From Armatimonadota bacterium (GTDB taxonomy: Bacteria; Armatimonadota; Fimbriimonadia; Fimbriimonadales; Fimbriimonadaceae), in the NCBI GenBank assembly GCA_027451905.1, contig DAIDHV010000009.1, positions 1 through 64,000 of the forward strand: 64,000 nt of DNA, written 5' to 3'. The notes under the pieces are model-generated. The model was not told where the DNA came from. It saw only the letters and a program-made list of their open reading frames with translations, and ran no database searches. Made by a program: the position numbers and the translations under genes. Positions 393-10,289 of this stretch are shown here, one piece after another; position 1 is the stretch's first letter, and the number at the start of each line of letters is the position of its first letter.

Positions 393-623
393 CTAAGGTA
401 CGGCGTCATAATCTAGCATAAACAAGAACTGACCAAAGGTAGGGCTGGTTGGGTTGAGATCCTGGATTGGGTCCATTGCCAAGGCAGGCAGACCCAACAA
501 CTCGGTTTGATGGGGCATGGACCGCCGCTCCGAAGAGTAATGATGTTGAAACTGGGTTGACTCTCCCAGCCAGCGGGAAATAAGATGCTTAACTCCGGCT
601 TGTAAATTGTGTTGAGACTTCAA
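393..623 (-). CDS. small hypothetical protein, last gene of phage-like block
   Basis: A 76-residue frame opening with TTG in a TTGA overlap with the stop of the large tail-tip gene, the same coupling used throughout the block, which is the main reason to accept it. No signal peptide, membrane segment or known motif is seen. It is rich in Gln, His and Pro. Position at the 3' end of a head-tail operon would suit a small tail accessory or a degraded remnant, but the sequence does not show which. The TTG start is supported only by coupling and by a GGAG eleven bases upstream. Confidence 0.45.
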   Translation of the reverse strand: MKSQHNLQAGVKHLISRWLGESTQFQHHYSSERRSMPHQTELLGLPALAMDPIQDLNPTSPTFGQFLFMLDYDAVP

Positions 624-3115
624 GAGGGAATTGACTCCGCTTCGTAATAGGCCATTTGATGTTCATCCTTGCCATAATCGAACCGTATTTCAGTCAGCAT
701 TGCATTGGCTCCATTCACGGTAATAAGATCGCCTGGACGCAAACTTCGCATAGTTCCAGTTGACCCATCCAAATCTGCAACTAACACCAATGGTGATTGC
801 CAAGACGTGACCTGTTTGCCATGGCATAGCCGATCAAATGCGCGTCTAACCATCCAATTTAACCCATTGGGTGTGGATTGACCCGGAATCCCTATAAAAA
901 GAGGCATATATCTATCAAGATAATCAAGCCCCATCGAATTGGGGTTTACACCATCAAACGGAAGGCTCGGGGTGTTTACCGCAACCTGCATGATTAAAGT
1001 GGGGAACCCTTGAGTTTCTGCGGCGAGGCCATAAGCAACAATTGCGCTTGCGGTGGCTGGCAAAATCCACGTTTGCATCGAATCTTTACGGATAAACGCA
1101 GTGCCGCTTGGATATCCCATGACGTTGTTCACTTGCTTTCCCGCTCCGGGGCCGCTCGTCACGAAATTCGCGATCGGGCTGCCGGTAGGTACGACCGTCA
1201 GGATGCGCCATTGGTTAAGATCAGGATCAAAATAGGGCCTTCCTCCCAAATACTCCCTGCATAGGCGGATGATCACATCCCCAAGAGGAACCTGTGGCTC
1301 AATAACGTGCCCCTGAGGATCGGCAGTGGCAAATAGTCGCAAAGGTGATGCAGGTAAATCTATCTGGCTAGAGTCAAATCCAGCCGCCGCAAACAGGGTT
1401 GTCAACGCGTCTGTCACCAAAAATGGAAGCGGATGACCAAGACTATCCAGACCATTAAAATCCTTCCCAAAATCAAAGCGCATCGGGCTGACTGCTTCAG
1501 ACAACCTCGCAAGAGGGCCGACAGCGGCCAATTCCAAACCGTTCCAAAGTGAACTTGGATACACACTCCCTGCAAGCCCGAACGCGCTGAATTGGGGCGA
1601 AACAACTTCGCCAACAAAGAGCCCTGCTCGGTTCTGGGGATTGGCAGGATCATATTCCGTTTCAACCCTGATCCTGCGCCTACCCCGATTAAGAATCGGA
1701 CCCATTGTGTTGGTCTCATCCTTTGCTGAAATCTTAGCCCATCCAGGCAAACTATCCGAACCAGGCACAGAAGATTCAATCTTGGTAACAATCCCGCTTA
1801 AATCCACTGGTGTCAGGGTGGAAGCTCGAAACACCGCATCCCGCTGTACGCGGTATCCAAAAAGGGTTGGCGTTGCAAGGGCAGGTGCCACGCTTGGACT
1901 ACCGGATAAAGTGAACTCGGTAAAAAAAGTTCGCTGAGGAAAATCCACCGTATATTGAGGGAACCCCGCCAACGTGCCGGATTGAGTCAGTTCGGCTCCA
2001 GTTTCTGCATCATAAAGTGCGCCGCTGATGGCGCAGCCAGACGGCAAATCACTAAACCAAGCCAAAATAATTGGCTGAGCCGACGTTGCAAAATACGGCA
2101 AGGTAAACGGATCATCTCTCAGCAAGGCCGAAGTCGGATAGGTTAAAGAGCTGATTTGCCAAGCCGCCCTTAAATCTCTTCGGATATCCAGCCTAACCGG
2201 TACCGGGCTCGATACCAATGTTGATTTTGGCACCGCGAGGTGCCACTGCCTCACATCCTGAGGATGAGAAACAGCCGGAGACGAAGACGCGTTGGCATCC
2301 GGATTTTGCTTCACCTGCTCAAACTCAATCACAATAACTCCGTTGAGAGCCGGATTGAGAGTCTTCGTGCATGGCTGAATGGAAATGAAGTGAGTTGCCC
2401 CTGAAACCCGCTGCTTGGGGCCATAAGGCTTTGAGCCGCAAGAAACCCATTGCCCCGAACACAGCTCAAACAGTTCGGCTTCCCCATTGGCGCCGAGGCA
2501 CAAGTAGTACTGGCCATTGCCTCCTGCCGCAAGTCCGGCGGGGCCGCAAAACCCGATCGCCGCCAGGCCTTCCCCTGCCAAAGTTTTTGCCCCTGCAACG
2601 TCTATCCTCACAACAAAGCCTTGGTCTGGCCCCCACGATGACGACCCAACAAAGGTGCGATCCACCGGGATCGGCTGGCTAATGCTCCATGGGCTTGGGT
2701 AGCCAGATTGGTCGCCAGTCAAAACATAGTTGGATGAAGACCAATCGTCTCCTGCTTTGACCTGCTTGGTCCAAAAAAGGTCTCCACTGGTTGCGACCGA
2801 AGGCGCGTAGTCAATTCCGGTTGCAGTAAGTTGTCCAAATCGGGGCAGCTGAACCCAGCCTGAGGGAATCGCCCCTTGACCGCTCCCCAAAATTGAGGAC
2901 TGCGCCTGGCTCATTTGCCCCATCTGTCCAGGATCTAGCTGCATGGGCTTCAGCTGCCAGCCACACTGAGAAATCAAAATGAGATTCTGAGAACCTGAAT
3001 TGGAGCCTCTTGCCATTTCATACCCATCTCTCTGAAACCCAAGCACCGGTTCAGTAAGCACATCCTGAGTTGTGTCGAGAGTCACATGGGTTTTTCGGTT
3101 GGGGGTCGTGCTCAT
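620..3115 (-). CDS. large tail-tip/hub-like structural protein
   Basis: 831 residues with no signal peptide or membrane segment. The N-terminal half is rich in Ser, Gly, Pro, Trp and short beta repeats, typical of tail fibre or tail-tip proteins. Around residues 560-640 a stretch (VTDALTTLFAAAGFDSSQ, then VIIRLCREYLGGRPYFDP) resembles the hub fold of phage tail hub/late-control-D-like proteins, and the C-terminal ~70 residues form a likely beta-barrel (RPGDLITVNG). The gene starts with ATG in an ATGA overlap with the gene before it. In siphophage order this slot, after the tape measure, holds distal tail or hub genes. The hub assignment is by weak motif and position; structure prediction would be decisive. 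Confidence 0.5.
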   Translation of the reverse strand: MSTTPNRKTHVTLDTTQDVLTEPVLGFQRDGYEMARGSNSGSQNLILISQCGWQLKPMQLDPGQMGQMSQAQSSILGSGQGAIPSGWVQLPRFGQLTATGIDYAPSVATSGDLFWTKQVKAGDDWSSSNYVLTGDQSGYPSPWSISQPIPVDRTFVGSSSWGPDQGFVVRIDVAGAKTLAGEGLAAIGFCGPAGLAAGGNGQYYLCLGANGEAELFELCSGQWVSCGSKPYGPKQRVSGATHFISIQPCTKTLNPALNGVIVIEFEQVKQNPDANASSSPAVSHPQDVRQWHLAVPKSTLVSSPVPVRLDIRRDLRAAWQISSLTYPTSALLRDDPFTLPYFATSAQPIILAWFSDLPSGCAISGALYDAETGAELTQSGTLAGFPQYTVDFPQRTFFTEFTLSGSPSVAPALATPTLFGYRVQRDAVFRASTLTPVDLSGIVTKIESSVPGSDSLPGWAKISAKDETNTMGPILNRGRRRIRVETEYDPANPQNRAGLFVGEVVSPQFSAFGLAGSVYPSSLWNGLELAAVGPLARLSEAVSPMRFDFGKDFNGLDSLGHPLPFLVTDALTTLFAAAGFDSSQIDLPASPLRLFATADPQGHVIEPQVPLGDVIIRLCREYLGGRPYFDPDLNQWRILTVVPTGSPIANFVTSGPGAGKQVNNVMGYPSGTAFIRKDSMQTWILPATASAIVAYGLAAETQGFPTLIMQVAVNTPSLPFDGVNPNSMGLDYLDRYMPLFIGIPGQSTPNGLNWMVRRAFDRLCHGKQVTSWQSPLVLVADLDGSTGTMRSLRPGDLITVNGANAMLTEIRFDYGKDEHQMAYYEAESIPS

Positions 3116-3504
3116 AAAAATGTGCCTCCCAAACTTAGAATTTGATAGATAAGATTTGCATCTTCCTTCTTGATTTTTGTTGATAGAGCTATGTACTGAG
3201 GCATAATCTGCGCGTTATCTTCGAGACTTGGCCTCTTTTCGGAGGTTATGGAATCTCGTCTTGGCTCATCGCTTGACTGAAAGCCTCCCTTGATCGGCTC
3301 CCATAACTGGGGCTGGTAAGCGCTAACAAAATCAGAGAATATATGATGGTTTGTCTCTTCAATGCCATGAAGAGGCGTCTGCCGACCAGAAGCACCTGGA
3401 TTTAAAACACTTTGAGAATCGCCACTTGCTGGCATCAAACCATCTGGTAGCGGATGGGCAAGACCTAGGGCCCGTTGCTGATAGAGAGCACCCCTTTGCC
3501 TCAT
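3112..3504 (-). CDS. hypothetical protein in the tape-measure position
   Basis: 130 residues from the ATG at 3504, chosen because it overlaps the TGA of the frameshifted chaperone frame as ATGA. An in-frame TTG lies three codons upstream. The protein is polar, rich in Pro, Gln and Ser, with no long helix or coiled coil. It sits exactly where lambda-like phages have a tape measure gene of a thousand or more codons, between the G/GT chaperones and the tail-tip protein. Its composition does not look like a tape measure, so it may be a remnant, a replacement or an unrelated structural protein. It ends in an ATGA overlap with the tail-tip gene. Confidence 0.5.
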   Translation of the reverse strand: MRQRGALYQQRALGLAHPLPDGLMPASGDSQSVLNPGASGRQTPLHGIEETNHHIFSDFVSAYQPQLWEPIKGGFQSSDEPRRDSITSEKRPSLEDNAQIMPQYIALSTKIKKEDANLIYQILSLGGTFL

Positions 3505-4120
3505 TTCAGCCAATCATCCCAGTTGACCGGCGCCAACACTGGCTGCTTTTCGATTTTTGCATTGGCATGGTGGGCAAGGGCTTCGACCGCTTCTGCAATT
3601 CTGGTCAGAATGGCTTGCTGCCGCATGATGACGGATGGGTGGTTCGCGAGCCCAGCCTTAACGCAATTTTCTATGATCTTCTCTTGCGCGCTGGTGAACT
3701 CGCTGCGGCTTTTCCCTTCGATTGCAGCCGATTCACTTGACGGGCTGCCGAGATCGCCTCCGAAAAACTGGCCGGACAATTCTTGGCGATCGCAATCCAT
3801 TCTTCTGCCGAAATCGCCTCACCAGTTGTTAAGTGACATGACATTAGGCTCAGAACAGTTGCCATTTCTGCCAAAGTGGGCCCTAAGTGAATCCACGCTC
3901 CACCTACTGGCGGAAACGGCGCCCCCGAACCTTCTAAAGAGCTTCCACCATACTTTGCCAGCAGTTCTGCGGCAAGATCCTTGGCATAAAGGCTCTCCAC
4001 TAAGTCAATGGCGGTGAGCTTTACTGGAAGATGCCAGCCCTGACCACGCTGGTCCGATAGGGTTAGTTCAATGGAACGGCGAGGCGCGGGCTCAAGTAAA
4101 AACGGGTCCAACCGCGTCAT
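3501..4120 (-). CDS. GT-like fusion made by programmed -1 frameshift
   Basis: The zero frame reads AAG GGA AAA GCC at the heptamer G GGA AAA. Slipping back one base lets both tRNAs re-pair on GGG AAA and moves translation into the frame that runs to a TGA at 3501-3503, adding 69 residues beginning with SRSEFTSAQEK. The fusion would be about 206 residues. The second frame has no good start of its own, overlaps the first frame by 130 bp, and continues the Ala/Glu-rich helical character expected of a T domain (AILTRIAEAVEALAHHANAK). Arrangement and slippery sequence match the lambda G-T system, whose heptamer is GGGAAAG. Frameshift efficiency is not known. Confidence 0.72.
3671..4120 (-). CDS. 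tail assembly chaperone G-like protein
   Basis: 149 residues when started at the ATG at 4120, which overlaps the TGA of the tail-tube-like gene (ATGA); an earlier in-frame codon at 4144 would overlap more. Typical of G chaperones, it begins with a small beta/helical domain (MTRLDPFLLEPAPRRS, IELTLSD) and ends in a basic, low-complexity tail after the frameshift site. In lambda and many siphophages G is the abundant short product and the -1 product GT carries the T domain; both load the tape measure protein and tail tube subunits. Family recognition rests on position, size and the frameshift, as G proteins share little sequence. Confidence 0.65.
   Translation of the reverse strand: MTRLDPFLLEPAPRRSIELTLSDQRGQGWHLPVKLTAIDLVESLYAKDLAAELLAKYGGSSLEGSGAPFPPVGGAWIHLGPTLAEMATVLSLMSCHLTTGEAISAEEWIAIAKNCPASFSEAISAARQVNRLQSKGKAAASSPARKRRS
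3710..3716 (-). promoter_or_regulatory. -1 ribosomal slippery heptamer GGGAAAA
   Basis: The minus-strand heptamer GGGAAAA fits X XXY YYZ in the phase required by the upstream frame (G GGA AAA) and lies inside the overlap of the two chaperone frames. Any downstream stimulatory structure would be in the GC-rich bases that follow; a convincing stem was not identified by eye. Confidence 0.75.
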
Positions 4121-4551
4121 ACGTAAGACACCCCGATCCCGCACGGAGAGATCACAAGTTCACCAACCGACTTTCCTCTCCGGATGGACTCTCGATAACG
4201 CCTAATAACAAACGTTCCCAAATAGGTATGACCGCCTCTTGCAAAACCGGCCTGAACGTAATCCGTGCTATTGCCAATTGCACTCAAGAAGCAGCCATTG
4301 ACCTTTGAGAGAATTTCGACCAAGGTGAGGGTTGTTCCCGACCCGACAATAACTTCATTGTCTTGCCGTTCATCAAGGGGTGTGATGTTTTGTAACGTGT
4401 TCACCTGTTCAAGAGTGATTTCATCAAGATGACCGGTTAAACTTTGCCCGGTTCCCACAGTAAAGGTGCCATCCGTATTCACCGTAAGCGGGGTCACCAC
4501 GATTGCGGTGACCCCAGCTCCGGTGAGCCAGTCTGGTAATTGATTTGCCAT
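4117..4551 (-). CDS. tail-tube-like protein
   Basis: 144 residues, starting at ATG 4551. It is Gly/Thr/Val-rich with alternating strands (GTFTVGTGQSLTGHLDEITL, GGHTYLGTFVIRRYRESI), compatible with the beta-sandwich of a major tail protein, which is normally the gene just before the G/GT chaperones, as here. No sequence motif is diagnostic, so the assignment is mainly by order and size. It is separated from the tail terminator gene by 24 bp and overlaps the chaperone gene by four bases. Confidence 0.5.
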   Translation of the reverse strand: MANQLPDWLTGAGVTAIVVTPLTVNTDGTFTVGTGQSLTGHLDEITLEQVNTLQNITPLDERQDNEVIVGSGTTLTLVEILSKVNGCFLSAIGNSTDYVQAGFARGGHTYLGTFVIRRYRESIRRGKSVGELVISPCGIGVSYV

Positions 4552-4575
4552 AAATGAATTGAGTAGAAAAATGGG

Positions 4576-5064
4576 CTAGCTGCCAAAAGATTGCCCAACC
4601 AGCGCCTTCATTTGAAGTTCGCCATAGGCAACCGGCAGATTCTCTTTGCGCAAAAGGAATGGTAATTCCACCTGATCCCCCACGCGAAGAATGGGATACT
4701 CGCCTGCGGTTTGGAAGGCAGAGACATGAGTGTTGAGGACGGTGCGCAAAGCGGTGAGCTGATTGAAAAGCAAGGTTTGAACATCAAAGCCGCCGGTTGC
4801 CGAAGTTCGAGGGTCATCCTTTCGCAGCAGATACCCGATTGTGCATTGCATACGATAAGCTTCGTTATCCAAGCCCCAGTCCTCAGGGATGCTCTCGTCA
4901 AATCGGACCAATGCCAGCGGAAACAGCAACTCGGAAGCATTCATCGCTGCCCGAATGGGAAGCCCGACCAGTAAATCCCACCGATAGACTCCCGTCACTT
5001 CCGGCCAAGACCCCGCGATGACGCTTTGCAGATCAGCCCAAACCGCAGATTCCAAAGTTGCCAC
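4576..5064 (-). CDS. tail terminator-like protein
   Basis: 162 residues from a GTG at 5064 preceded by a strong GGAGG-type ribosome binding site seven bases upstream, which settles the start. Layout is one N-terminal helix, central strands (LLFPLALVRFDES, YRMQCTIGYLLRKDD), a helix (QLTALRTVLNTH) and C-terminal strands, as in small alpha/beta tail terminator (completion) proteins. Its place between the stopper-like and tube-like genes agrees. Identification is by fold pattern and order, not by a conserved motif. Confidence 0.5.
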   Translation of the reverse strand: MATLESAVWADLQSVIAGSWPEVTGVYRWDLLVGLPIRAAMNASELLFPLALVRFDESIPEDWGLDNEAYRMQCTIGYLLRKDDPRTSATGGFDVQTLLFNQLTALRTVLNTHVSAFQTAGEYPILRVGDQVELPFLLRKENLPVAYGELQMKALVGQSFGS

Positions 5065-5065
5065 C

Positions 5066-5452
5066 TTAAGCCCCCTCCGGAATCGAAGTTAGCTTCACAA
5101 AAACTCGAATCCGGTTGGCCCTCCAGCCATTTCGTTGAGGCTCGCCAACTACCGCAAACCACTTTCCAACATCGGCAGAGCCAGTAGGTGCCGATGCAAG
5201 TTGGATTCGGTCCTGATCGCGGACGTCCGTATTGAGGGCAAAGGCAATGGTTTCTAACAGTGGCAGCTTATTGGCATCAGTTAGCCCGGAAGCAGTCACT
5301 TCTTCCCAATCGGCACTGCTGGAATAAAGGCAAGGCAAGCCAGAAACGATCTTGGTGTAGGCAACCGCATCCACCGCTGCTGATGGCAAGTTAGCCCGCC
5401 AAATATCGGCGGTGTAGACATAAAAAGAGGATTGCCTGGGACTTAGCTGCAC
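5066..5452 (-). CDS. head-closure (stopper)-like protein
   Basis: 128 residues from GTG 5452, with AGGAG six bases upstream. The pattern YVYTADIWRA, an internal acidic loop, a strand-rich core (DVRDQDRIQLASA, KWFAVVGEPQRNGWRANR) and a terminal strand RVFVKL resembles head-closure/stopper proteins, small beta-barrels that seal the portal-adaptor channel once DNA is packaged. The gene begins three bases after the stop of the adaptor gene and ends next to the tail terminator gene, the usual order for HK97-like head-tail connectors. Confidence 0.55.
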   Translation of the reverse strand: MQLSPRQSSFYVYTADIWRANLPSAAVDAVAYTKIVSGLPCLYSSSADWEEVTASGLTDANKLPLLETIAFALNTDVRDQDRIQLASAPTGSADVGKWFAVVGEPQRNGWRANRIRVFVKLTSIPEGA

Positions 5453-5455
5453 GGG

Positions 5456-6136
5456 TTACTCCTCATCAAGCCACCCCATTCGCATGTAGCTATCCATGAT
5501 CTTTCTGGCAGAGGCTCGAAACAGACCCGCTCCCTGCTGCATCGATTCTGTGTTCCAAGATTCCTTGACCTTGTCTTCTTGCCATTGATTTGGCATCGTC
5601 AACAGTCCTTCTAAAACCATCTCCATACCCATCGAGGCGCCGATCCGAGTGATTGCAAAGAAAGCATCATCCGGAACCGCCAAAGAAAATCCAAATTGAC
5701 CGGTGATCTGAACGCTTGCTTCCATGCCAAACACGGGGCTTCGAAATCGAATCCGCTCATAAGGTCTGCCCTCAAGGGTTGCATTTTTTGGCTGAGGCCA
5801 ATAATCCTCTCCTAAAGTTAGAACGGTTCCTGTCACGCCGACCCCCACCCCAATCGCAACTTGTTGAATCGAGACTGCCCCTGCTCCCAGATCAAGGATG
5901 CGGCTTCCCCCCAAAAGGGAGAAGCCATCCATCCGTTGGTGGTTGGGCCCTGGCGGATCATAGGTGCGAACCGTGTTGGCACCAAGGCAAAGAAACGGCT
6001 GATAGCCAGTCCCTTTTTCCCAGATCGCGATCGCCGCCGCTGCCAAACCCGTTCCAGAAAAGGCGGCTGGCAAAGCAACTCCCGATTCCTGAAGGCAAGC
6101 AAGAACATCGGAATCGGCTGGGTAACTATTTGGCAC
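5456..6136 (-). CDS. head-tail adaptor (gp6-like connector) protein
   Basis: 226 residues if started at GTG 6136, which follows AGGGGG by six bases; a TTG at 6181 would add 15 residues. It begins YPADSDVLACLQ and continues with helical Ala-rich segments, then an inserted strand domain (RILDLGAGAVSIQQVAIG, GEDYWPQPKNATLEGRPYE) followed by VQITGQFGFSLAVPDDAFFA and a C-terminal helical part. This interrupted helical bundle with a DY..P.NA...PY loop is the usual look of gp6-like head-tail adaptors, which bind the portal ring. Overlap with the gene upstream is 11 bases. Moderately sure. Confidence 0.6.
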   Translation of the reverse strand: MPNSYPADSDVLACLQESGVALPAAFSGTGLAAAAIAIWEKGTGYQPFLCLGANTVRTYDPPGPNHQRMDGFSLLGGSRILDLGAGAVSIQQVAIGVGVGVTGTVLTLGEDYWPQPKNATLEGRPYERIRFRSPVFGMEASVQITGQFGFSLAVPDDAFFAITRIGASMGMEMVLEGLLTMPNQWQEDKVKESWNTESMQQGAGLFRASARKIMDSYMRMGWLDEE

Positions 6137-6404
6137 CGCGATCCCCCTTTTGCGGCTTTCTTGACGCCATCGAATGCTCAACCTTCACTGTTTGAGCTAA
6201 ATCCGGCTGAGGCTTATCATACGTAGCCAGGGCGGGTGGAACCTCACTTGGCTGAGACGTCAAATTGGATCGAGCCACCCAAATACTGGTGCCATCCAAC
6301 AGCTGAAGCGTCACCGCCTCGTCGCTATTGCCAACAACAAGGCCCGATAGTTCAACTCGCTGTCCGATCATGGGGGTTTCGGGCCGTTTCAAGCCGATCC
6401 TCAA
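6126..6404 (-). CDS. small hypothetical protein of the head region
   Basis: 92 residues from TTG 6404 in a TTGA overlap with the preceding gene; an ATG at 6371 is an alternative start. The core has short strands (VELSGLVVGNSDEAVTLQLL, DGTSIWVARSNL) and a basic tail (ASRKPQKGDRGAK). The small beta pattern could be an SH3-like or capsid-decoration fold, but nothing specific is recognised. It lies between the capsid-adjacent gene and the adaptor. Confidence 0.5.
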   Translation of the reverse strand: MRIGLKRPETPMIGQRVELSGLVVGNSDEAVTLQLLDGTSIWVARSNLTSQPSEVPPALATYDKPQPDLAQTVKVEHSMASRKPQKGDRGAK

Positions 6405-6808
6405 ACCAGCGTTGCAGGAAAATCCTGGGTCACGGGGGCTTCGTCGGGGTTGTACAGGTCAATCCCAATTGCACCAGTCACCGTTCCAGAGATGGTCTCT
6501 TGGACCCGTAAAAATCGCTTCCTGTAGGTTAGATCAATGCTCAAAAGCCGAATCGCTTTGGTGCTAGAGGCTGGAACCGTGGCAATGGCCCCTCCCAAAA
6601 CATTGGCCCAAGGATCGGTCACTCCGTTGTCATTGGATTCTTGAAGGGCGGCATCGAAAGTCGAAGCCGCCGCAGTTGTAGCAAAAGCGCAGAGCTTGGC
6701 TCTGGTGAAACCTAAGGTATCGCAGGATGCGCTTGCCTGGGTGGTAAGAACGCCAAGGTCTAAGCAATGGCTGAGAACTTGATCGGTGGGTGTGTGAATA
6801 TTGCTCAT
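6401..6808 (-). CDS. hypothetical protein next to major capsid gene
   Basis: 135 residues from ATG 6808, eight bases after the capsid stop; a GTG at 6856 would overlap the capsid gene by 40 bases and is less likely. The sequence is Ala/Thr/Ser-rich with a hydrophobic central helix and strands near the end (RKRFLRVQETISGTVTGAIG, IDLYNPDEAP). The last part resembles head-to-tail or capsid-associated phage proteins of similar size in this position, but family membership cannot be fixed by eye. Confidence 0.55.
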   Translation of the reverse strand: MSNIHTPTDQVLSHCLDLGVLTTQASASCDTLGFTRAKLCAFATTAAASTFDAALQESNDNGVTDPWANVLGGAIATVPASSTKAIRLLSIDLTYRKRFLRVQETISGTVTGAIGIDLYNPDEAPVTQDFPATLV

Positions 6809-6816
6809 AATATGTT

Positions 6817-8169
6817 TTAAGCCTGTTGGCCGATCCTTAGTCGAAACTCTTCGCACACTTGTCCACCAAATCGCACCCTTCCAAGAAGAAGGATTTGATT
6901 GGTTTCTGCGTATAGCTCTCTCAGGACTTGGACCGAAAAACCGATCCTTTCCACCAAGTAGTAACCGCGAAGATCGCCAAAGATGACCGGATACCTATTT
7001 GCGGCAAGATTTGGCATAAACCCTTGGAAAAGAACTGGATAACCTTGAAGCATCCTTCTGCCTGCCCCCGGCGAACCTGCCTGCTCCATCAGACCAGAAT
7101 CTTGCAGACCAGTCCCCCACAAATAACGGTTGTTAGAGTCTTTAAGCGTTGCCAGGTACTGGCCGGTTACGGTTTTATTAAAGACCCAAGCAAGGTTTTC
7201 ATCGTACTGCTCAGGCACGCTCCATGCCAGTTTGACAATTCCATCTGCCGTGATTGGGTTGCCAATTGCAACCGTTTCTGGCTGCCCGGCGCCTCCCGGA
7301 TTGGAAAGGATTCCGGCTGGCTGACCAACCCCAATCCCATTAAGGATCATGTTTTCTTTAAGGAGCCGAATCGTCTCCGAAAATTTCTCCTCGCACCAAG
7401 ACTGAATCGGAAAATCGGCATCTTCCACCATGTTATTAGTTAAAGGCATCGAAAGCATTGCCGTGTAAATGGGGATGCGAGATTGCCCAAATGTTGGTTC
7501 GGTAACCCTTGATGCTGCGCTGGTAATGGGAACTTCACCGGTAAACGCAGCGCGGATGCCGGTTGTATAAAGGTCATCTGCCGTGTAATTGACCCTTGGC
7601 AAAACCATTGCATCGCGGCCGGTTGTCAATCTGGTCACCCGATCTTGAACCCGCGTTGGAGTTGGCTCTCTTTGGATCAACCTTTGAATAAAATCTTCTG
7701 GCACCAAAAAGCCACCAGCAGAGTCTGCCCCTTCTTGAAGGGCCTTGAGTTCAACCGAACTCATTCCCTTTTCTCCCTTTCTGAGGTAAGAATGGAACGC
7801 CGATTTGTAACTGGGCTCGGCTATGACCCGCCAAGTCTTTTCATCAACCAATCCTTCGCCATTGCCAAAGAAGCCAAGCTGTTGGCTCGACTTTTCAATC
7901 GCAGTTTGACCAGCCGCCTTCATTCCAACAACTTGGGCGCCGGTATCAAATGGTACGTCGTAGATTGGTCGAGATAGGTAAGCGCGGTTCTGCTCAGCAA
8001 CGTGGATTGCTTCTTTGAATGCCTCAATGGATTCGGTGAGGGTCTTAAACTGCAGATTGAGTTCTTGCGCCTTTAAGAGGCTCTCCTGGCTGGGTGATTC
8101 CAGCAAAGTGTCGACTTCGGAAGAAAGCCTTTCTGCTTCTTCCATCATGGATGTGAGTTTTGGATTCAT
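6817..8169 (-). CDS. HK97-type phage major capsid protein
   Basis: 450 residues. The first ~130 are a charged, coiled-coil-like delta domain (EEAERLSSEVDTLLES, LTESIEAFKEAIHVAEQN), the internal scaffold removed by the prohead protease. The mature HK97 fold then begins near GADSAGGFLVPEDFIQRLIQ, with the conserved G-[GA]-[FY]-L-VP entry, and continues through E-loop and P-domain segments (IYTAMLSMPLTNNMVEDADF, ENMILNGIGVGQPAGILSNPG) to FGDLRGYYLVERIGFSV near the end, a hallmark of this family. The prohead protease and portal genes directly upstream confirm the assignment. It forms the icosahedral shell. The frame is intact, with all expected segments present. Confidence 0.93.
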   Translation of the reverse strand: MNPKLTSMMEEAERLSSEVDTLLESPSQESLLKAQELNLQFKTLTESIEAFKEAIHVAEQNRAYLSRPIYDVPFDTGAQVVGMKAAGQTAIEKSSQQLGFFGNGEGLVDEKTWRVIAEPSYKSAFHSYLRKGEKGMSSVELKALQEGADSAGGFLVPEDFIQRLIQREPTPTRVQDRVTRLTTGRDAMVLPRVNYTADDLYTTGIRAAFTGEVPITSAASRVTEPTFGQSRIPIYTAMLSMPLTNNMVEDADFPIQSWCEEKFSETIRLLKENMILNGIGVGQPAGILSNPGGAGQPETVAIGNPITADGIVKLAWSVPEQYDENLAWVFNKTVTGQYLATLKDSNNRYLWGTGLQDSGLMEQAGSPGAGRRMLQGYPVLFQGFMPNLAANRYPVIFGDLRGYYLVERIGFSVQVLRELYAETNQILLLGRVRFGGQVCEEFRLRIGQQA

Positions 8170-8205
8170 GGATTTACGGAGTTCAACTCCAAAAAGAAAC
8201 TGTTG

Positions 8206-8874
8206 TTAGATGCCGATTTGGCGGATTGAGCTTGCTTCAATAGCCAATTGTGGAGAGTGGATTCTTGCCAGTAAATGTGCTTTTGGATTCATCGGAACCG
8301 ACACGATTGAAGCTTCATAGAGGGCCTCAACCTGTTGAATCAAGCGACAAGGACGATCCCACTGCCGCAGGCTAGCTTCATCCGGCTCGCCTTTCACCCC
8401 AAGGCGCCCCCATTGCCGCAGCAGTTCTTCTCCCGATCGAAAACCAATGGCTTGGTTGATCGGGGCTGAATACCCAATACTCAGCCCCACAGTCAGCCCT
8501 GCGGTTAGCCGATCTTTTACAATCTGCTTAACCGCGCTAGCTTCCTCGATTTGATGAAGTTTGGCAAGCACAATCAGCCCCTTCCTTGATTCGATCGCGG
8601 CGAGGGGCATACCAATCGGCGGACGGTCCCACTGATGACCAAAAGTAATAAACCCCGATTCAAGAAAGCGTGGAATGGCGCCGCTAAAGGCCCCATAGGC
8701 AATCACGTCACCCCCTAAATCCACCGTATTGCATGAAGCAGCAAGGCCCACAATCAACCCTTCATCAAGGCTTTGTAAAGTTCCGGAATTGGCGTTCAAT
8801 CCCAGTTGAGCTCCATTGCAGTTGACTAGCAAGGTTGGTTCCCAGTTTGGAAAATTGCCAATCGCGAAGTTCAA
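8206..8874 (-). CDS. HK97-family prohead protease
   Basis: 222 residues from TTG 8874 in a TTGA overlap with the portal stop. A serine protease of the herpesvirus assemblin fold is indicated by the early GDVIAYGAFSGAI segment, His80 in FGHQWDRPPIG, and Ser132 in LTVGLSIGY, the expected His/Ser pair in the expected spacing. It would cleave the capsid delta domain during maturation. The C-terminal third contains an additional Arg/Trp-rich piece before EASIVSVPMNPKA, the strand normally close to the end of these proteases. Both catalytic residues are kept, arguing against simple decay. Confidence 0.88.
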   Translation of the reverse strand: MNFAIGNFPNWEPTLLVNCNGAQLGLNANSGTLQSLDEGLIVGLAASCNTVDLGGDVIAYGAFSGAIPRFLESGFITFGHQWDRPPIGMPLAAIESRKGLIVLAKLHQIEEASAVKQIVKDRLTAGLTVGLSIGYSAPINQAIGFRSGEELLRQWGRLGVKGEPDEASLRQWDRPCRLIQQVEALYEASIVSVPMNPKAHLLARIHSPQLAIEASSIRQIGI

Positions 8875-10289
8875 GAGTGGGACCCTCCCATGTTGGTGGA
8901 TCCCGCTATGGGCTGACCACTTGCACTTGAACCGGCCGATGTTGGCGGTTGATATTTGCCGATTGTTGGCTCAGCAATGAATTGGTTACCGTCTTGGTCT
9001 GGCAAAATCGGCAATCCAATCAGTTGCCTGGCCTCATTGCGAGACATCAGACCATTCTGAAACGCTTGCCCCGCTCTTGCAAACCGAGAGTCCTCCGATT
9101 CCTTCAGAATCTCGATTGCAGAGCGATCCCAGCCAAACTCAAATCCTTCCCCGTTAAACTCGGGCAATAGCTGCTGAGTTAACTGTTTAGCCAACCGGTT
9201 CTGAGTCGGAACAATGTTGCCCTCATAGGCCGCCCTTCGGCTATCTTCAAAGCTGGCCTTTGCGGTTGCATTCCGCAGTCCAGTCCCTAAATTCAGCACT
9301 ACCGGCGGGATATTCAAAAGCGCACAAATCCGCTCTTCGGGCCGCTCCGTCACTTTATCAATCAGCATCTGTTGGGGGTTGAAGCTAAAGGGAATGACCT
9401 TCATCGGAACCGGCGCCACAAACGGCTCGCCTCTTCTATCCCCTGTAAACTTAGATCGCCAAAGGGCTGCAAGCTCCTCTCGCTGCCTCCTTTCAAATAC
9501 AAATTCTCGATCTTGGCCCGCGCTTGCGTCTGGGCAGATCAGGGCGCCAGGAACGCCCGCGTTTCTCAACAAAGAGGCGGTGTAAGACGCACTTTCATTG
9601 TCTGTGCAGATGTCACGGAGCGCAGCCTTGAGGGGAGAAATCCCTTTGCGTTCATTCATGGGATCAAGCACATGATGGCGCAGGTGGATAATGTCATTCT
9701 TATCCAAAATAAGGTCTTTGCCATCAACTCGCATTTTATAGCCAGATAGAAATGCGCTGCCATTATTGGGCCAAATCGGCTCGATTCGGTAGTGAGGCAC
9801 ATACCAAAGTTCGACAACTTTGCCATTGCGGCTGCGCACCTTTCTCCAGTACGCATTGCCATCTACCACCAAAGAAAGCACGGCGCCAGCCCAAAGCTGA
9901 GTGCCATCGTAATCTTGATTTGGGTGGGCTATTAGCTGGGCAGCAGGGTGATTAGGATCAAGATGATTGCCCCCGATCTTGGTCACCCCAAGCTGCGCTT
10001 CTGGCAAAGTTGTCGCTATCCAATTGATGCCAGCCATTACTATCGCGTTTTCCCACAAGGCGCCCGCTTCCGACTGATAGTCGTAGCTAGCGCCTGGGAG
10101 AAACGGCCAAAGTCCGAACAAACCCAATGAGCCAAGCCCATCACCCCCGTACCCTGGAAACAGCCTTGTCATTCCTTTGAAAAGCAAACTCCGAAGCAGA
10201 CTCTTCGTTGAAAAGGGTTGAGAAATTGAGCTGTTCGGCTCAGATTTTGGGGTGGAGAAGCTAAATTTGCCCCGATTGGAATTGCCCAT
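8871..10289 (-). CDS. HK97-type phage portal protein
   Basis: 472 residues from ATG 10289. The family core is recognisable: WENAIVMAGINWIATTLPEA near residue 80, LVVDGNAYWRKVRSRNGKVV, LWYVPHYRIEPI, DIIHLRHHVLDPMNERKGIS, ASLLRNAGVPGALI, and the C-terminal RICALLNIPPVVLNLGTGL followed by an acidic clip/crown part. The portal forms the dodecameric DNA channel at one capsid vertex and normally docks the terminase. No terminase gene lies upstream; the next gene is a cellular HD-domain gene. It is first in the phage-like block, with a good promoter about 90 bp upstream. Confidence 0.92.
   Translation of the reverse strand: MGNSNRGKFSFSTPKSEPNSSISQPFSTKSLLRSLLFKGMTRLFPGYGGDGLGSLGLFGLWPFLPGASYDYQSEAGALWENAIVMAGINWIATTLPEAQLGVTKIGGNHLDPNHPAAQLIAHPNQDYDGTQLWAGAVLSLVVDGNAYWRKVRSRNGKVVELWYVPHYRIEPIWPNNGSAFLSGYKMRVDGKDLILDKNDIIHLRHHVLDPMNERKGISPLKAALRDICTDNESASYTASLLRNAGVPGALICPDASAGQDREFVFERRQREELAALWRSKFTGDRRGEPFVAPVPMKVIPFSFNPQQMLIDKVTERPEERICALLNIPPVVLNLGTGLRNATAKASFEDSRRAAYEGNIVPTQNRLAKQLTQQLLPEFNGEGFEFGWDRSAIEILKESEDSRFARAGQAFQNGLMSRNEARQLIGLPILPDQDGNQFIAEPTIGKYQPPTSAGSSASGQPIAGSTNMGGSHS

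Follow-up and report, generated by a model that had tools for sequence, protein, structure and literature searches.

Our data suggest that a phage-derived head-tail operon (locus A) and a distant block of packaging, lysis and control genes (locus B), both in the genome of a member of the phylum Armatimonadota, are two parts of one endogenised siphophage that is now split over two chromosomal loci and is not self-propagating, a reading to which we give an even chance. The gene sets and their two places were seen directly, and from them we infer a common origin, one split element being somewhat more likely than two remnants. The window, that is, the whole stretch of DNA analysed here, comprises bases 1-64000 of contig C9 (102,223 bases) from a draft genome of 2.87 Mb (37 contigs, 98% complete), whose host falls into the same family as MAGs named Fimbriimonadaceae/Fimbriimonadia.

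Locus A consists of 14 ORFs on the minus strand, running from 10289 down to 393 (Table 1), and in the ORF list none of the 14 contains an internal stop and most are joined by start-stop overlaps, much as an earlier note on this DNA had described it (about 13 intact, coupled genes). The portal, protease and capsid named in that note passed profile tests (E 1e-50, 9e-5 and 6e-46, respectively), and its stopper, terminator, tube, chaperone pair and tail tip are borne out by homologues at matching positions and by a slippery site. The portal is the only one in the genome, which also holds a single capsid of this capsid family, and homologues of g4 directly follow the capsid gene in 8 relatives. 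For most genes other than portal, protease and capsid, profile searches gave no match to a named family, and for g5 no homologue was found either by PHROG search or among the relatives. The capsid sequence used alone as a query against the genome and viral contigs gave nothing, and alignment-based searches were needed; an AlphaFold model of g9 was discarded (mean pLDDT 39). Judged by these matches and by gene order, locus A is a genuine phage structural block that covers head and neck as well as the tube, chaperones and tip of a tail, and the suggestion of a novel protein shell gives way to an ordinary HK97-type head.

Table 1. Features of locus A (window coordinates) and of locus B (contig C8)
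Feature	Position	Strand	Evidence
Portal protein, 472 aa, first gene of locus A	8871..10289	-	Pfam Phage_portal E 9.7e-51; PHROG 2662 E 5e-58
Head maturation protease (Peptidase S78), 222 aa	8206..8874	-	PF04586 E 9e-5, above cut-off; PHROG 80 E 2.5e-12
HK97-type major capsid protein, 450 aa	6817..8169	-	Pfam PF05065 E 6e-46
g4, small head protein	6401..6856	-	PHROG 5707 E 6e-8
g5, 92 aa	6126..6404	-	no homologue
g6, head-tail adaptor by position	5456..6181	-	homologues after capsid in 10 relatives, including G132/G133
g7, head-tail stopper by position	5066..5452	-	same-position homologue in prophage G079 (L500:8520-8960, E 5e-7)
g8, tail terminator by position	4576..5064	-	homologue in G008 (L501:10002-10967, E 3e-8)
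g9, tail tube protein by position	4117..4551	-	homologue in prophage G081 (L498:10477-10944, E 2e-11)
g10, tail assembly chaperone G	3671..4144	-	homologue in G079 (L500:10666-11115, E 7e-6)
g11, T part of chaperone GT	3501..3800	-	reached from g10 by -1 frameshift
-1 slippery heptamer G GGA AAA	3710..3716	-	in g10 frame
g12, 133 aa, at the tape-measure place of relatives	3112..3513	-	
g13, tail hub/tip protein, 831 aa	620..3115	-	Microcystis phage Mae-JY24 E 2e-19
g14, 76 aa, separate C-terminal hub module	393..623	-	separate in G083 too (L499:1995-2213, E 3e-11)
TerS-like gene, 98 aa	locus B		C-terminus aligns with TerS genes upstream of related TerLs
Membrane/coiled-coil protein, 97 aa	locus B		
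CHAP endolysin	locus B		E 1e-6
Sigma-70-like factor	locus B		regions 2 and 4
HTH-S24 repressor	locus B		divergently oriented

The tail genes combine signs of integrity with one conspicuous gap. The overlapping chaperone genes g10 and g11 are read in different frames, and a -1 slip at 3716-3710 leads into the frame of g11, which from there stays open as far as the g11 stop; this layout is like that of the lambda G/GT chaperone pair, whose slippery site is GGGAAAG, and an equal arrangement with the site CCCAAAA occurs in G081. Profile matches to g13 were obtained in G079, G081, G083, G008, G132 and G133. In phage Mae-JY24 the equivalents of g13 and g14 are fused in one hub ORF, which had suggested a single hub gene broken by a frameshift; this was rejected because G083 has the two-gene layout with an identical 4-bp overlap, and the split would be natural architecture and no sign of decay. 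In phages and prophages with a g13-type hub, an ORF of 420-614 aa, presumably the tape measure, directly precedes the hub where the hub region was read, and the tape measure of a more distant prophage in G076 matches Pfam TMP_3. No tape measure was found between the chaperones and hub of locus A, as had been claimed earlier, but only the 133-aa ORF g12, which showed no similarity to seven presumptive tape measures of relatives (z below 1) and is ruled out as a shortened version. A PF10145 search for a tape measure elsewhere in the genome was negative, which says little because most of the presumptive tape measures in relatives have no Pfam match either, and a gene for it may lie elsewhere. Locus A would on this gene order depart from a functional siphophage, and the loss of the tape measure, which may be decay, together with the retention of the chaperones argues against a working tail.

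The search of the same genome for a terminase, proposed in the earlier note, was successful, and a single TerL was detected with the G133 terminase and then TerL itself as query (C8:42113-43483), beside lysis and control genes. Locus B spans 4.7 kb (C8:42.1-46.8 kb) and carries genes for an S24 repressor, a sigma-70-like factor, a CHAP endolysin, a membrane/coiled-coil protein, a TerS-like protein and TerL. The TerL motifs are intact, TerL is the last gene and is followed by a hairpin, and the TerS-like protein has an LPDNGR motif in its C-terminal part, as do those encoded upstream of related TerLs. The block is flanked by DegT aminotransferase and fucosidase genes, deep within cellular sequence, with 42 kb or more of contig C8 on each side. 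The claim that packaging, lysis and repressor genes are missing is correct at locus A but not genome-wide, given the TerL/TerS, endolysin, sigma factor and S24 repressor on C8. No integrase was found in locus A or locus B, the four tyrosine recombinases of the genome all lying elsewhere (that on C9 about 79 kb from locus A), and neither locus contains replication genes. Taken by gene content, A and B appear to lack the organization of a temperate phage, with integrase, replication and packaging genes beside the structural genes. Two further loci were noticed around recombinases: at about 89543-98000 of C9 (L088, C9:82000-100000), a tyrosine recombinase is followed by small HTH, DNA adenine methylase-like and nuclease-like genes, likely a restriction-modification island, and L089 (C13:1-7311), close to a tyrosine recombinase, resembles an Rhs locus in its repeated RHS-type fragments followed by small genes.

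Several observations bear on whether A and B are one element. Each of the head and packaging functions tested occurs once in the genome, and these functions are divided between A and B without overlap. Locus B ends at TerL and locus A starts at the portal, the two being usual neighbours in phages, and we count this in favour of a single origin. An IMG/VR contig (L258) encodes a TerL 54% identical to that of B only 10 bp before a portal 41% identical to that of A. The equal GC contents of the two blocks (51.7 and 51.8%; host 49.3 +/- 1.2%) and their host-like tetranucleotides speak for one element, but composition is not decisive as proof of common origin, both blocks resembling the host. A search for a promoter or operator motif shared by A and B found nothing above chance, and the TerL of B differs in type from that of G132/G133; we count both points against a single element. 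Separation of A and B by an inversion between the HD gene and DegT was rejected, since relatives do not have these genes adjacent.

Alternatively, A and B may be remnants of two unrelated prophages, truncated by deletion and decaying, young enough to retain intact ORFs and forming no particle; we regard this as a serious possibility, although the less probable one. It would fit with the finding that, among 74 phage contigs with the TerL type of B and room to judge, 68 carry a portal type unlike that of A, with the lack of a tape measure at its usual position and with the presence of locus A in one species only. Remnants do occur in the family, as indicated by G137, in which a phage region that looks broken, with cellular-looking genes inside, carries a related TerL. 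That region (L082, G137 C1:350000-369999), which resembles a broken prophage, encodes a TerL 61% identical to that of block B, and its portal-like gene is separated from the later head genes by a gene for a secreted, beta-helix-like protein of 774 aa. Against two remnants stand the complementary gene sets, the clean block ends at operon borders, about 20 ORFs without stops or frameshifts, and the natural architecture of g13/g14, which had seemed a sign of decay. Specifically, the stops or frameshifts expected of a decayed remnant were not seen in the structural genes of locus A, and old decay is made less likely by the intact state of the ORFs, the catalytic motifs and the frameshift signal. 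Intact genes by themselves are compatible with a cryptic prophage of young age as well as with a domesticated one.

That locus A is an ordinary integrated prophage, with its remainder past the contig end or lost by assembly or binning error, is improbable: the contig starts 392 bases beyond locus A, the gene at 1-340 weakly matches a Sie-like phage family (E 0.005) and the genome is a draft of 37 contigs, but locus A stops after the tail tip and is followed by an OB-fold gene on the opposite strand, an HD-domain gene present in 55 of the 85 family genomes borders it on the right, TerL, normally the neighbour of the portal in such phages, sits deep in cellular sequence on another contig, and the genome has no second portal. 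A search by contig-end overlap for the contig next to C9 found none. The earlier description of the flanks as cellular stands for the right side; the left flank comprises only 340 bp of one cut gene, the window starting at base 1 of the contig. This OB-fold (tRNA_anti-like) gene is the only hint of phage genes past the contig end.

We return to the reading of A and B as one split element and to the distribution of locus A. A related capsid is encoded in 12 other genomes of the 291 in the phylum, none above 45% identity, and the conservation at the same site that the earlier note had proposed to check did not emerge: in 29 family genomes with the HD gene, the neighbouring site is empty of phage genes. 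The capsid tree joined the window to G132 and G133 (100/97), two 1.5-Mb genomes from species of one genus (g24) in the same family, and the portal tree agrees weakly (84/76). An old vertical element common to g24 and the host genus g1 is suggested by the capsid tree but not by the SecA tree, in which the two genera are not sisters, and we therefore prefer to see in the element of the window a related phage that was captured separately.

If A and B act together, cleavage of the repressor would set free locus B together with the sigma factor, heads would assemble once locus A is expressed, the terminase from B would fill the heads of A in trans and the endolysin would open the cell. Such joint regulation and particle formation are conjectural. 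The particle could not transmit the element, because neither locus has integrase or replication genes and A and B are not contiguous; it could be at most a carrier of host DNA, like a gene transfer agent (GTA), or else a non-productive relic.

GTAs such as RcGTA, BaGTA and BhGTA are classed as viriforms, with structural proteins derived from caudoviruses, genes endogenised often over several loci, mostly vertical inheritance with co-diversification with the host, and packaging and delivery of random host DNA, their own genome not being packageable whole (PMC9662315). GTA-type elements resemble remnants and are spread over loci, as has been cautioned (PMC11841831). In the present case, the profile matches of portal, protease and capsid point to caudovirus-derived structural proteins, and the structural block on C9 and the terminase/lysis/control block on C8 would represent endogenisation over several loci, if both belong to one element. 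As far as genomes were sampled, vertical inheritance is not seen, locus A occurring in a single species of the family and having its capsid sister in a non-sister genus. We therefore find the idea of a GTA-like element with packaging genes elsewhere partly sustained, by the single portal, capsid and terminase, the C8 block and the parallel in g24, and partly weakened, by the lack of vertical conservation and of a tape measure; judging from its genes, the element would be a split, non-propagating former phage and possibly a GTA.

Like GTAs, the element has a phage-derived head-tail operon in the host chromosome with other genes at further loci, lacks integrase and replication genes and amounts to 10-20 kb in all. 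RcGTA has its terminase beside the portal and a short tape measure; in contrast, the element described here has a remote terminase and no tape measure in place. The closest siphophages, namely Microcystis phage Mae-JY24 (hub, PsiM2-type TerL), the IMG/VR contigs L096-L098 (capsid 53-57%) and prophages in G079, G081, G083 and G008, share its modules and gene order and have a homologue of its portal, capsid, adaptor, tube, chaperone or hub. Unlike locus A, those of them in which the hub region was read have the presumptive tape measure of 420-614 aa before the hub, and those in which terminase and portal were both read have the two close together.

The element of G132 and G133 (JAUICQ010000017, JAUIKO010000001; loci L015, L016, L017, L424 and L425) resembles that of the window in its homologous portal, adaptor and hub, in the lack of tape measure and integrase, and in occupying more than one locus in G132; it differs in keeping its own TerL, of another type than that of B, beside protease and capsid, in having lost the chaperones and in being conserved between two species. 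Its genes encode an amidase, a holin-like protein, portal, TerL, protease, capsid, adaptor, stopper, terminator, tube, hub and a large tail protein, and no integrase, chaperone or tape measure was found in the loci read. The whole element adjoins secA in one stretch in G133. In G132 the element is spread over three contigs and at least two loci: the first contig has amidase, holin and portal next to triosephosphate isomerase, the second has the genes from TerL to terminator next to secA, and the third carries tube and hub at its end, an edge that probably joins the second. Between the two species, portal, TerL and capsid are 58-67% identical (SecA 75%), and agreement at four-fold sites is 0.30-0.41 observed versus 0.30-0.31 by chance (SecA 0.32 versus 0.31). 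Evolution is much faster in tube, hub and terminator (27-30% identity), and g8 is 16-24% identical to the genes at the terminator position of G133 and G132. Had two diverged phages been captured separately, similar numbers could result, but chaperones and tape measure have been lost in both species and the element is linked to secA in both, which points to one old endogenous element. Protein conservation at saturated synonymous sites is what would be expected of a GTA, and the G132/G133 element is a stronger GTA candidate than that of the window. In both species, a sigma factor-GGDEF fusion adjoins the element (L017:3845-5107 and L425:2475-3743, 65% identical) and might link its expression to cyclic di-GMP-type signalling.

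A search of one library of papers found none relevantly linking gene transfer agents or prophages to Fimbriimonadaceae. We tentatively raise the rather unlikely hypothesis that this family turned related siphophages into GTAs more than once, in a form working without a tape measure, its minimal tail made up of terminator, tube and hub, the element of the window having its structural and packaging halves apart and that of G132/G133 being older and vertically kept. If true, this would to our knowledge be the first GTA in Armatimonadota. GTAs are known in few lineages and their scattered genes look like prophage remnants, which makes them hard to find; the cleanly separated halves and the old-looking sister element offer a concrete test case outside the known groups, and the absence of a tape measure from both elements would question the minimal requirements of a tail.
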